Below are positions 2,935 through 12,976 of a DNA stretch of 13,005 nucleotides, piece by piece; the first letter of the stretch is position 1, and every line of letters starts with the position of its first letter. The position numbers and the translations under genes are program-made. Below the pieces are notes generated by a model. That model saw nothing but the letters and a program-made list of their open reading frames with translations. It ran no database searches and had not been told where the DNA came from. The stretch spans positions 9,264 through 22,268 of the forward strand of contig JACQWU010000027.1 in assembly GCA_016209155.1 (NCBI GenBank), in the 5' to 3' direction. This stretch comes from Candidatus Desantisiibacteriota bacterium. Its GTDB lineage: Bacteria > JACRDZ01.

Positions 2935-4560
2935 TCAATCATAACCATATCTTTTTATAAACCAGATTTTGCCCATCTGAACCATTAAAAGGTAGGCAGT
3001 AATAATAATCAAAAGTGTAATAAAATATAAAGACGGAGGAGCAATAAACCCAAAAGGTTTTGCAAGAGGAGAAAAAGGTATCATAAATCCAATTGATAAT
3101 ATTACAATTGAAGATATCACTAAAAGTCTGCTTGGCTTGCTTTCAACAAATGGGATCTTACCTGTACGGATAATATATATAACAAGTGTCTGAGTACACA
3201 GGGATTCTAAAAACCATCCGGTATGAAATAATTGAGGGGTGGCTTTAAAAATAAAAATTAATACACCAAAAGTTAAAAAATCAAATATCGAACTGATGGG
3301 ACCAATAATGACCATAAATTTTTTTATGGATTCTACCTGCCAGGGTCTTGGTTTTGTAAGATATTCTTTATCAACTTCATCAGTAGGAATTGCTATCTGA
3401 GACAAATCATAAAGAAAATTATTTAAAAGAATCTGTATGGGCAGCATGGGTAGAAAAGGAAGCATAAGACTTGCGCCGGTCATACTTATCATGTTCCCCA
3501 GATTAGAGCTCCCGCCCATCTTAATATATTTAATAATATTACCGAACGTTCTTCTGCCTTCAATAACCCCGTCTTCCAGTACCATTAAACTTTTTTCCAG
3601 CAAAATTATATCTGCTGATTCTTTAGCAATATCAACAGCATTATTTACTGATATCCCGACATCCGATGCTTTTAATGCCGGAGCATCATTTATCCCGTCT
3701 CCCAGATAACCGACAATGTGTCCGTTATCATGAAGTAAATGGATTATTTTCTCTTTCTGCAGTGGTGAAAGACGTGCAAAAATATTAGTGTTTTTTACCA
3801 TTTCCTTCAACTCAATATCATTTAGTTTTGCTATTTCGCTGCCGGTAATTAATCCTTTTACATCCAGGCCGACATCACTGCATATCCTTTTTGTTACCAG
3901 TTCATTATCGCCTGTCAACACCTTAAAATCTACTCCGAGTTTTTTTAATACTTTAATTGCATCTTTTGCTGTTGGTTTTGGCGGATCTAAAAAAGCAACA
4001 TAACCTTTAAGTATTAAATCTTTTTCATCCTCCTTTGAATATATATCTTTCTTATTACTTATATCCTTATACGCTACGGCAAGAACTCTAAAACCTTCCG
4101 CGCTTAAATCATCATATTCTTCTTTTAAATCCGAAAGTATCAAATATTCCATATCCAGTATTTCACCGTCTAATTCATACCTGGAACATCTTTTAAATAT
4201 TTCTTCCGGAGCGCCTTTGGCAATTAATCTATGCATTCCCTCTGTTTCAACAACAACCGACATTAATCTTCTGGAAAAATCAAAAGGTATTTCATCAATT
4301 TTTTTAACTTGTTTTACCAGAAGCTTCTTATACTTAAGAATTGCTCTATCCAATATATTTTTTAAACCTGTCTGATAATAACTATTAATATATGCATATC
4401 TTAAAACATCCTCGTTTTCTCTTTTAACGATATCACAATGCTTTTCCAGAACTATTTGGTCCAATGTAAGGGTCCCTGTTTTATCAGTACAAAGCACATC
4501 CATTGCTCCAAAATTTTGTATTGAATTTAATCTTTTGACAATAACCTTTTTTTTAGACAT
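2935..4560 (-). pseudogene. mgtA: Magnesium-transporting P-type ATPase (MgtA type), 3' fragment of a broken gene
   Basis: This 541-residue fragment carries the phosphorylation, nucleotide-binding and C-terminal membrane parts of a P3B-type ATPase, which imports Mg2+ through the inner membrane. Phosphorylation motif DKTGTLT lies near residue 26, TGDNE near 216 and GDGINDAPAL near 288. A run of membrane helices follows from about 345 to the end. WFLESLCTQTLVIYIIRTGKIPF and KIDEIPFDFSRRLMSVV are signatures of MgtA rather than of Ca2+ or K+ pumps. Upstream of the ATG, in the same frame, the codons for KGAIA continue the MgtA consensus, so the ATG at 4560 is an internal methionine and not a true start. 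It overlaps the stop of the 5' fragment by 8 nt. About 47 residues expected just before KGA, which hold M3, M4 and the ion-binding TPEMLP motif, are absent. A working pump is therefore very unlikely. Confidence 0.9.
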
Positions 4561-5398
4561 AGCTATCGCGCCTTTGAAAACGAATCATTATCCAGGTAAA
4601 ATCATGAATCCCTTTATCAAAACCTGTTTCTGTTCTCATATTTGCGAGTTTGCGGGAAATTTCACCAAACTGCGTGGAGATACCTGTTTTTACAACCACA
4701 GCCAGCGCAGTACCGCTTACAACACTTGAACCCATAAAAGCGATGTTGTTTAATTCTGAGCTTGATTTAGACTTACTCTGCACCGGTACCGCACTTTTTT
4801 CTATGGGAAAAGATTCACCTGTCAGAGAAGATTGATTAATAAACAGATCCTTGCAGGTAATAATCCTTAAATCAGCAGGTATCATATCACCGGCATACAA
4901 ATCAACAACATCTCCGGGAACTATCTCCTTGATTTTTATCTCTTTTGATTTTCCGTCGCGGAATACAGTTGCTGTTGCCCTCACCATTTCACTTAATTTC
5001 TCGGCTTCTTTGCCTGCCCGGTATTCCTGCACAAAGGATAGACATACACTCATTACCGCCATCGAAGTCACCAGTATTGTACTGATTTTCTCACCCAAAA
5101 AAAATGAAAGCGCCGCAATAATCAGAAGAACAATAACCAGCGGATTTGCGAATTTGGAAAGGATTTGAATAAAAATTGTTCTTTTCTTTTTTTTAGCCAG
5201 TTCATTATGCCCATATTCATCAAGCCTGTTCTGCGCTTCTATTTTACCAAGGCCTTTTTCAGAAGTTCCCAATTTTTCAAAAAGAACATCGAAAGGACAT
5301 CCGATATAATCAAAATCTAAAACCTGTAATTTCTGCTGCGGGTCGGGATTTTTTTGTTTGTTATTTTTTTGATTTTTTTTGGGATCATCTATTTTCAC
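4553..5398 (-). pseudogene. mgtA: Magnesium-transporting P-type ATPase (MgtA type), 5' fragment of a broken gene
   Basis: This fragment encodes a Lys/Asn/Gln-rich N-terminus, the cation ATPase N-domain (NRLDEYGHNELAKKKK, near 58-73), M1 and M2 (about 83-125) and the actuator domain with SLTGESFPIEK (dephosphorylation loop TGES, near 192). Homology to MgtA runs through TGFDKGIHDFTWIMIRF, then stops abruptly at base ~4577. The last nine residues are out of frame relative to the family, and the stop is at 4553-4555. GTG at 5398 is the start, with GGAG 9 nt upstream (5408-5411). The first 60 bases contain A-runs of 7 and 8 (on the coding strand), which could be slippage-prone. The gene follows the nucleotidyltransferase gene by 54 nt. 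The frame change cannot be repaired by single-base slippage, because conserved sequence is missing as well as the frame. Confidence 0.9.
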
Positions 5399-5452: not shown

Positions 5453-7900
5453 TTAAAGATTAATCAATTGCGTTATTTTTTCTTTGTATTTTCCGAGCAG
5501 CTCTTCAGCTTTTTTGCGGGTATTACCTTCTACCCATAAATGTAAAAAAGGTTCCTCAGGATCCTGTAAAATTAATATCCATTCACCTGAGTCAAAATTT
5601 ATTTTAACCCCGTCAATCAGCTCAATATTTGAATCTTTATATTCTTCAATAATATCCTGTAAAATACGGCCCTTATATTCCCATGGACACGGGATCTCGT
5701 TTACTTCTATGTAATATTCCGGTATTGTGCTGAATATTTTTGAAATTTTTTCTTTTTCACCTGAAATAAATTCTGCTAATTTTAAGATAGAAACGATCGG
5801 GTCAAACACAGACTTAAATTTCGCGAATAAATATCGTCCATCGCCCATTCCCGAAAAAATCAAATTATTATCCATACTGGTTTTTATCAAATGTCTTTCT
5901 TCGCGCTTTGTTCTGAATAACTTTCGATTAAATTTTAAAGCCATATCCTCCACAATTTTAGATATATTAACAGGGACAGCAATATCACCCGACATAGAAT
6001 TTTTAAGTACAAGGTATATCATTAATACTAAAGCATGTTCACTTTTTAATTCCACCCCGTTTTCATCAATAATATAAAACCTCTCGGCTTGAGTATCAAC
6101 TCTTATCCCTATTTGAGCTTTTTCTCTTACAACAAGAGAACCGATCTCATCATCATTGCCGGCAAGAATTACTTCACACCCAATCTCATTAAGCAATTTT
6201 TCAACTTTTATGTCAGTAAACGGGAATACACCATTTTCATATCTTAAAATAATTTTAAGATTGCCTTTCCCTTTATTTATAAAATTATTAATTTCTGCCA
6301 TATAACTTTTTTCAAATTTCTCGGATGGTATTATTTTTCCAAATTCAGACGGCATTACACGAATAAATTCTTCTCTGTAAAAAACCTTTTCAATTTTTTT
6401 CTCCATACTGCGGTCAATATTTAAACCCTGTGAATCAAAAAATTCAATGGATATAGAATTATTATCATGCAATGCTTTATTAATATAAACTCCGCCTGAA
6501 ACCCCCTTAGCTATTACTGCAAACTGGTTTAAAAAAGAAGGCATATTATCAGCATCATAAATATTTACTCCGGCGGAAATAATCCCGCCTTCCATAACCC
6601 TCTTAAGCATTTTGCACATTTTATCTCCGCTTGCGCTAAGCATTACAGAAGAATTTTTTGAAAGACAGGTAGCGTATGCTGTACCCAATTTAGCGGCAAA
6701 TTCTGGGGTTATTTCCACATTAGCTTTACCAAAAACTCCTGAAAAACCAAAAAGATTTTTACGCCACTTTTCTCCCCATATCAAACTTGTCGAAAGAGTA
6801 ACTCCGGTTTCAATAATTTTATCCGGCCAGACTCTGACATTTGTTTTTATTACTGCCTTCTGACCTATCGTAGATCCATCACCTATTACAGCACCTTCAT
6901 ATATAGTTACTCCGCCTTCCATAAAACAATTTTTGCCGATTATGCAGCCCCGTAATTCATCATATTCACTTATATATGTATTATCCCAGATAACACATCT
7001 TTTTATACTGCTCCCCTTACCGATAGTCACATTATCACCTAAAGTCGTAAATTCCGAAATTTCGGCATCTTCTTCCACATTACAATTTCTGCCGATAATT
7101 ACAGGACCTGTAATTTTTGCATCCGGATGAATTATTGTTCCGTCTCCAATCCATATATCTTTACCTTTTTCTGTTCCTGTTATATTTATATTAACTTTTT
7201 TTTGCAGAATATCATAATGCGTCTGTCTATATTCAGGAAGATCACCTATATCACACCAGTAATTATGCGTTATATAACCGAAAAGCCTTTGCTTTTCTTT
7301 CAACAATTTAGGAAAAAGAATTGCACCGAAATCATATTCCTCGCCGTAAGGGATTTCTTTAAATATACCTGTTTCAAATATATATACACCTGTATTGGCT
7401 GTATTACTGAATACTTCTCCCCAGCTTGGTTTTTCCAGGAATCTCGTTATACGCCCTTCATTGTTTACAATAACCACTCCATATTCAAGAGGGAAGTCCA
7501 CCTCCTTCAAAACAATTGTTGCAAGCGCTTTTTTTGATTTATGAAACTCAACAGCTTCCTCAATATTGATATCACTCAACCCATCACCGCTTAATACAAG
7601 AAAAGTATCATCAAAAAAATGTTCAACTTTTTTAACCCCGCCGGCTGTACCCATTAATTTTTCTTCATAGGAATAATGGAGACTAACTCCGAATTTACTG
7701 CCATCTCCAAAATAATCTCTTATACTGTCAGGATAATGATGTAAATTTACGATTATATCTTTGACTTTATATTTTACAAGAAGATTAATAACATGTTCCA
7801 TTACAGGTTTATTTATAACCGGAACCATAGGTTTGGGTATACGGCATGTCAAAGGACGCAGCCGCGTACCAACACCTGCGGCCATGATCATTGCTTTCAT
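5453..7900 (-). CDS. Fusion of mannose-1-phosphate guanylyltransferase-like nucleotidyltransferase with a degenerate phosphomannomutase domain
   Basis: This 815-residue cytoplasmic protein has three parts. Residues 1-235 form an NTP-transferase domain with the nucleotide loop MAAGVGTRLRPLT (6-18), the KP pair at 23-24, LSGDGLSD at 103-110 and EKPSWGE at 156-162. Residues ~245-365 form a left-handed beta-helix of hexapeptide repeats (IGDGT, IGKNC, IGDGS). Residues ~395-815 resemble a phosphomannomutase. Proteins of this architecture (~830 residues) are annotated as GDP-mannose pyrophosphorylase or glucose-1-phosphate nucleotidyltransferase and feed surface polysaccharide synthesis; the exact sugar is uncertain. 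In the mutase-like part the phosphoserine loop (ASHNP type) and the DGDGDR metal loop are not recognisable (SASGDKMCKML at 422-432, GIRVDTQAERF in place of the metal loop), so mutase activity is doubtful, as is typical of this fusion. ATG is 6-8 nt after AGGAGAG. The gene is intact. Confidence 0.85.
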   Translation of the reverse strand: MKAMIMAAGVGTRLRPLTCRIPKPMVPVINKPVMEHVINLLVKYKVKDIIVNLHHYPDSIRDYFGDGSKFGVSLHYSYEEKLMGTAGGVKKVEHFFDDTFLVLSGDGLSDINIEEAVEFHKSKKALATIVLKEVDFPLEYGVVIVNNEGRITRFLEKPSWGEVFSNTANTGVYIFETGIFKEIPYGEEYDFGAILFPKLLKEKQRLFGYITHNYWCDIGDLPEYRQTHYDILQKKVNINITGTEKGKDIWIGDGTIIHPDAKITGPVIIGRNCNVEEDAEISEFTTLGDNVTIGKGSSIKRCVIWDNTYISEYDELRGCIIGKNCFMEGGVTIYEGAVIGDGSTIGQKAVIKTNVRVWPDKIIETGVTLSTSLIWGEKWRKNLFGFSGVFGKANVEITPEFAAKLGTAYATCLSKNSSVMLSASGDKMCKMLKRVMEGGIISAGVNIYDADNMPSFLNQFAVIAKGVSGGVYINKALHDNNSISIEFFDSQGLNIDRSMEKKIEKVFYREEFIRVMPSEFGKIIPSEKFEKSYMAEINNFINKGKGNLKIILRYENGVFPFTDIKVEKLLNEIGCEVILAGNDDEIGSLVVREKAQIGIRVDTQAERFYIIDENGVELKSEHALVLMIYLVLKNSMSGDIAVPVNISKIVEDMALKFNRKLFRTKREERHLIKTSMDNNLIFSGMGDGRYLFAKFKSVFDPIVSILKLAEFISGEKEKISKIFSTIPEYYIEVNEIPCPWEYKGRILQDIIEEYKDSNIELIDGVKINFDSGEWILILQDPEEPFLHLWVEGNTRKKAEELLGKYKEKITQLINL

Positions 7901-7980: not shown

Positions 7981-8196
7981 TTATATTAATCCTTCATCAG
8001 CAAAGCTATAAAAAACATTGTTCCCTATAATTATATGATCTAATACTTTAATTTCCAAAGTTTTACTCACTGCTACTAAATCTTTAGTAAATTTTTTATC
8101 TTCAAGACTTGGGGCGGAACTACCTGAGGGATGATTGTGAACACAAATCATTGAAATTGCATGATTTTGCAGAGCTTTATAAAAAATCTCCCGCAT
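7981..8196 (-). pseudogene. radC: RadC family JAB/MPN-domain protein, 3' fragment of a broken gene
   Basis: This fragment encodes the C-terminal half of the RadC domain. It shows the JAMM-type metal motif VHNHPSGSSAPSLED and the family ending KVLDHIIIGNNVFYSFADEGLI. In this frame the reading is open upstream of the ATG through the codons for AQAHPFMREIF, matching the 'HPRE(I/V)F' segment of RadC. The ATG at 8196 is therefore an internal methionine of the original gene and not a true start. RadC proteins carry a zinc-dependent JAB fold; their cellular role is unsettled. About 36-39 residues expected between this part and the N-terminal fragment are missing, and the two parts are in different frames. 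Confidence 0.85.
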
Positions 8197-8582
8197 AAAC
8201 GGATGCGCCTGAGCTCAACTACATCTTTTGAAGATGTTATTTTTGGACGCTCTTCCTTCATTTCTTCTTCCTTAAATCTTCTTCCGATTTCTATAGCAGC
8301 TCTTATCTGCGCAATTTTAGCATTACCAAGACCTTTAGTTTCTTTTAGCGCCGGAATATCCACCTGAGATATACCTCTAAAAGTTTTAAATTTACTCAAT
8401 ATTGCTCTTGAAAGTTCAACAGCGCTCTGTCCCTTATTCCCTGTCCGTAGCAATATAGCCAGAAGTTCAGTATTTGAAAGCCTGTGCTCACCTTCTTTAA
8501 TAAGCTTCTCGCGAGGCCGTTCATCCATGGGCCATGATTTAATACTGTTTGATGAATTATCATCCGATTGTATTTCTTCCAT
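8148..8582 (-). pseudogene. radC: RadC family protein, 5' fragment of a broken gene
   Basis: This fragment encodes the helix-hairpin-helix N-terminal region of RadC: MDERPREKLIKEG, LSNTELLAILLRTG, and KGLGNAKIAQIRAAIEIGRR. The conserved TSSKDVVEL, which begins the JAB domain, comes next. At base ~8211 the match ends, and the frame then reads nonsense residues (RRIRLCGRFF and onward) to a stop at 8148. The true downstream RadC sequence continues in another frame. ATG at 8582 is well supported, with AAGGA 8 nt upstream. It is the first gene of the minus-strand run and has a plausible promoter at 8619-8647. With the core of the JAB domain missing, the product should be inactive. Confidence 0.87.
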
Positions 8583-9005: not shown

Positions 9006-9092
9006 GGAGGGCTAGTCCTAACTGGCAAGGCAGTAGACTTGAAATCTACCGGGTGAAAGCCCTTGGGGGTTCAAATCCCTCGCCCTCCGCCA
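9006..9092 (+). tRNA. tRNA-Ser (anticodon UGA)
   Basis: An 87-nt class II tRNA. The acceptor stem GGAGGGC (9006-9012) pairs perfectly with GCCCTCC (9082-9088). The anticodon arm is GTAGA-CTTGAAA-TCTAC, giving anticodon TGA. A long variable arm (CGGGTGAAAGCCCTT region) is typical of serine tRNAs. The T arm has GGGGG-TTCAAAT-CCCTC. A discriminator G and an encoded CCA (9090-9092) complete it. A run of eight T's follows immediately, which may assist termination. It is the only plus-strand gene in this part of the window, so it is transcribed towards the convergent propeller gene. Confidence 0.96.
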
Positions 9093-12577: not shown

Positions 12578-12672
12578 TTGTAGAGACATGCCATGGCATG
12601 TCTCTACAATACGTTTCTGCAACACCACCATTGGGATGTCCATACAATTGACATATCCCTACAATTTCCCCC
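12578..12672. repeat. 95-bp repeat, copy 1, with a perfect 32-bp palindrome
   Basis: Identical over all 95 bases to 12911-13005. Bases 12578-12609 are a perfect palindrome centred on CCATGG. A second, imperfect hairpin follows: GGGATGTC (12633-12640) against GACATATCCC (12650-12659). The copy lies 23 nt after the OYE stop and could act as a transcription-stopping hairpin. Its far end contains the stop codon (TAG, minus strand, 12659-12661) and the last codons of the transposase fragment. Confidence 0.9.
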
Positions 12673-12976
12673 TGTCAAATAATTTATCGTTATTCCAATT
12701 GTATGGGTTGCTAATAATATATTCTTTAATACGGTATAATTCTTTTTCATCACGAATAATGTGATCATAAAATCTGGATTGCCATGCAAAAACAATATTG
12801 TTTTTATTGCAATATCGTTTTATTGTTCCTTTATAATGATTAATTACCATTGATAATGAATTTTTTTTTGGTTTTGAAAATTGATTATTATTTGTTTGTT
12901 GTTGTCGTTGTTGTAGAGACATGCCATGGCATGTCTCTACAATACGTTTCTGCAACACCACCATTGGGATGTCCAT
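12659..12976 (-). pseudogene. 5'-truncated REP-associated (Y1, IS200-like) transposase
   Basis: The 105-residue frame ends in the C-terminal part of a REP-associated tyrosine transposase: NHYKGTIKRYCNKNN, then FAWQSRFYDHIIRDEKELYRIKEYIISNP and W-N-N-D-K. Tyr86 in KEYIISNP is the likely nucleophile position by analogy with the family (inference). The N-terminal half, which carries the His-x-His metal site, is absent. An in-frame TAG at 12992-12994 closes the frame upstream, so the loss is real within this sequence. Residues ~12-22 (IVETCHGMSLQ) are encoded by the palindrome of repeat copy 2, followed by a Gln/Asn-rich linker. Such enzymes move REP palindromes through single-stranded DNA; this one should be inactive. 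Confidence 0.75.

Follow-up and report, generated by a model that had tools for sequence, protein, structure and literature searches.

The broken mgtA gene in the window, i.e., the whole stretch of 13,005 nucleotides analyzed here, most likely is an assembly mistake, because similar small losses hit many genes of the same draft, including the essential rpoB. A cell cannot live without RpoB. We put the probability of an assembly artefact at roughly 0.85 and infer that the join within mgtA is false and the gene intact in the cell. The organism would then most likely have a full-length MgtA, an ordinary Mg2+ P-type ATPase. The gene is represented in the window by the following features:

2935–4560, minus strand: mgtA 3′ piece, a 541-aa ORF with DKTGT, the P and N domains and M5–M10
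4553–5398, minus strand: mgtA 5′ piece, a 281-aa ORF with the N-terminus, M1–M2, the A domain and the start of M3; the frame is lost past IRF
4576–4577, minus strand: mgtA junction, where 140 nt encoding M3, most of M4 and VGLTPEMLP are absent compared with the nearest relative

Their family matches identify the two ORFs as opposite ends of a single MgtA-type Mg2+ P-type ATPase. The 5′ piece matched positions 21–264 of the Mg P-type ATPase model TIGR01524 (E 1.2e-70, 238.4 bits), together with the Pfam families Cation_ATPase_N and E1-E2_ATPase. The 3′ piece matched positions 317–865 with 717.8 bits and alone exceeds the curated cut-off of 610.75 bits, although mgtA is split over two frames and gave no single-frame full-length match above it. 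Likewise, solved MgtA chains in the PDB are matched by the 5′ piece up to residue 295 and by the 3′ piece from residue 347. The A-domain TGES motif is present as SLTGES in the 5′ piece and the phosphorylation motif as CTDKTGTLT in the 3′ piece, whereas M4 with VGLTPEMLP, found in relatives, is missing in both. An earlier, sequence-only reading of this DNA had proposed to align the two translated fragments to MgtA proteins; both indeed match the family, with a gap between TIGR01524 positions 264 and 317.

On the minus strand, MgtA homology stops at IRF (base 4577), leaves one spare base (4576) and restarts in another frame at KGAIAMSKKK (base 4575), upstream of the ATG of the 3′ piece. The sequence-only reading had located this break correctly to the base. 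Its estimate of about 47 missing codons, a net loss of 3n−1 or about 140 bases, also held: compared with the nearest relative, a genome of the same phylum (G001) with mgtA as an 873-aa open frame, the window lacks exactly 140 nt between its bases 4577 and 4576. In this alignment (locus L007) the left flank reaches base 1344 and the right flank starts from base 1485 of the relative, and the lost block comprises 47 residues. The 5′ and 3′ pieces are 74% and 79% identical to the G001 protein, respectively. Nucleotide changes lie mostly at third positions (pN 0.13–0.16, pS about 0.8), and from this pattern both pieces look constrained. Apart from the junction they are fully open, with no further decay in either.

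We compared the spacing from the F codon of IRF to the ATG of the 3′ piece in 77 relatives and two copies of the window, using loci that encode both pieces with at least 50% identity in the second. Of the 77, 74 have a spacing of 156 nt, two of 159 nt and one of 210 nt; in the window it is 16 nt. The M3–M4 block is present in all 77, and the short form, which in the earlier reading would point to a real variant if close relatives had it, occurs in none of them. Some close MgtA relatives (61–71% identical; L046, L048, L049, L050) lie on contigs labelled archaeal, i.e., Woesearchaeota, Euryarchaeota, Ca. Ainarchaeum and Micrarchaeota, which reflects either transfer or mis-binning.

Similar losses were found elsewhere in the draft:

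7984–8582 of the window, minus strand: radC, with N-terminal homology to about 8196 and C-terminal homology that resumes at about 8211 in a different frame; relative to G001, the gene has lost its frame and about 36 codons (net −109 nt)
2768–2775 of L194 (G000:C276): rpoB, split into 851- and 429-aa frames, 32 nt missing
Contig C70: a second P-type ATPase, net −179 nt, frame changed
Contig C34: UDP-glucose dehydrogenase-like gene, net −254 nt, frame changed, one reference protein
Contig C50: PorA-like gene, net −140 nt, frame changed, one reference protein
Contig C20: a gene that we take, by eye, to be epimerase-like, net −134 nt, frame changed, one reference protein
Contig C12: a gene that by eye presumably is ATPase-like, net −28 nt, frame changed, one reference protein; a weak case with 41% and 36% identity
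Contig C155: a ninth lesion from the first survey, net −112 nt

When non-overlapping ORFs from relatives served as references, the draft showed eight frame-changing net losses of 28–254 nt, free of Ns, in 113.6 kb of homologue-covered coding DNA. Tested in the same way, 153 kb of G001 and 127 kb of a further same-phylum genome (G003) each yielded none. In-frame losses, which are about equally frequent in the relatives, were counted and left unused. If lesions fell evenly, all eight would lie in the draft with a chance of about 5e-5, a rough figure as mgtA, radC, the C70 gene and rpoB had already been noticed or suspected when the survey began and some contigs had been chosen for an already-seen broken ATPase or rpoB. 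Without these four genes, four lesions are left (C12, C20, C34 and C50), on contigs picked by number alone, and the corresponding chance is about 0.007 (0.289 to the fourth power; likewise rough). An earlier survey, with all ORFs as references, had produced many spurious 1–2 nt calls in 80 mixed loci, for which shadow ORFs and frameshifted references are the probable source; in these loci a single call reached a net loss of at least 28 nt (−50, one reference).

The same kind of lesion hence recurs at many unrelated loci of the draft, among them an essential single-copy gene, and at none in the relatives. rpoB was found once in the draft and is one frame of 1293–1297 aa in three same-phylum genomes (G001, G002, G003). 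rpoC is cut by contig ends, and model positions 129–168 (about 40 codons, about 120 nt) are unmatched between C276 and C110.

A false join could have arisen when two short-read contig ends, or the parts of a chimeric read, were joined over a short readless stretch within an intact mgtA, which would drop 140 bases of the gene. Assembly that drops short stretches explains mgtA, radC, rpoB and the other cases jointly, whereas separate real deletions need a reason each. The source draft (G000; 3.08 Mb in 352 contigs, 79% complete) is scaffolded, and the window (G000:C3:9264-22268) is the terminal part of a 22,268-base contig; its position 1 is the first base past a 15-N scaffold gap (C3:9249-9263). 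In 584 kb of the draft, leaving out one all-N contig, we counted 18 short N runs of 6–106 bases, four of them with identical ends of 10–23 bp on both sides. Such identical-ended gaps are overlaps that the scaffolder left unmerged, and one of them breaks a gene in C20 that by eye looks like a glycogen branching enzyme. Short unbridged gaps thus occur throughout the draft. The mgtA junction itself contains no Ns, and no long overlap is common to the homologous ends in G001, so that a false join through overlap leaves no directly visible trace there. Multiple displacement amplification is expected to yield inverted-type chimeras; these were sought in three genomes and found in none. A literature search for descriptions of such an assembly error returned nothing specific. 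As a counterpoint, the scanned relatives belong to other families, and gene decay specific to this lineage may play a part.

Elsewhere in the window, a minus-strand ORF at 5453–7900 encodes an 815-aa protein in which a nucleotidyltransferase with hexapeptide repeats is fused to a phosphoglucomutase/phosphomannomutase-like part. A tRNA-Ser (TGA) lies on the plus strand at 9006–9092 (ARAGORN, Rfam), and a 105-aa minus-strand ORF at 12659–12976 resembles, by eye, the last part of a REP-associated (IS200-like) transposase.

The sequence-only reading had stated that mgtA "has lost" the block, which is accurate for the assembled sequence; as a statement on the organism it is less likely than an assembly error, the alternative which that reading had itself named, with similar losses spread across the draft up to rpoB. 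A real recent deletion is unlikely, yet it is the rival reading that survives best. Here, mgtA would be a fresh pseudogene in the organism or in part of its population, and the other losses would be assembly errors or further pseudogenes. The exact and clean loss without Ns is compatible with this, as is the lack of another mgtA in the 79%-complete draft, where the next-best matches are 36–37% identical. However, comparable losses affect indispensable genes, above all rpoB, neither mgtA piece has decayed further, and no relative has the short form. Even a real mgtA deletion would still be an ordinary pseudogene. It is highly improbable that small out-of-frame deletions truly occur in many genes of the organism, even in rpoB, and that it gets by with proteins that are split or corrected in frame.

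We give hardly any credence to the idea that two coupled ORFs yield a working pump, be it shortened or of two subunits. The mgtA ORFs do share 8 nt (ATGTCTAA), an arrangement compatible with translational coupling, and the earlier reading had called this a coupled junction. However, the ATG of the 3′ piece is the usual internal Met of the family (MSKKK here, MSKEK in 9zlk), and the overlap hence is a chance by-product of the lesion, with no designed coupling. Neither piece encodes M3 or most of M4, VGLTPEMLP included. In E. coli MgtA, the TM4 exchange E331A abolished complementation and reportedly renders the transporter inactive (PMC10925321). Membrane Mg2+ in MgtA structures was resolved between M5, M7 and M8 (PMC13174805). 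TPEMLP, which the earlier reading had named the ion-binding motif, hence belongs to the ion path as an essential element rather than being a demonstrated main Mg2+ site. That reading was right that M3–M4, TPEMLP and the frame went together and that the two ORFs are no split functional pump; with the block in neither, they cannot make a working one.

Equally remote is the reading that another part of the genome, or a programmed event such as frameshifting or an excised element, provides the missing block: nothing speaks directly in its favor, the G001 block finds in the draft only other P-type ATPases (31–38% identical) and the right flank of the window itself, and frameshifting alone would leave about 47 codons absent.

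The assembly artefact as preferred reading also calls for caution, since claims of gene loss, split genes or pseudogenes that are based on this draft need reads. In it, mgtA, radC, rpoB and the UDP-glucose dehydrogenase and PorA genes would be called broken. Compared with MgtA/MgtB-type Mg2+ P-type ATPases (P3B; TIGR01524), the window gene is alike in the order and content of its pieces, in TGES, DKTGT and M5–M10, and it differs by the absent 140 nt (M3–M4) and the frame shift between the pieces. Compared with local misassembly, i.e., a false join in a short-read draft, the mgtA junction differs in showing no visible overlap; the draft resembles it in short net losses at many loci, essential genes included, and in having contig ends as well as short N gaps of comparable size.
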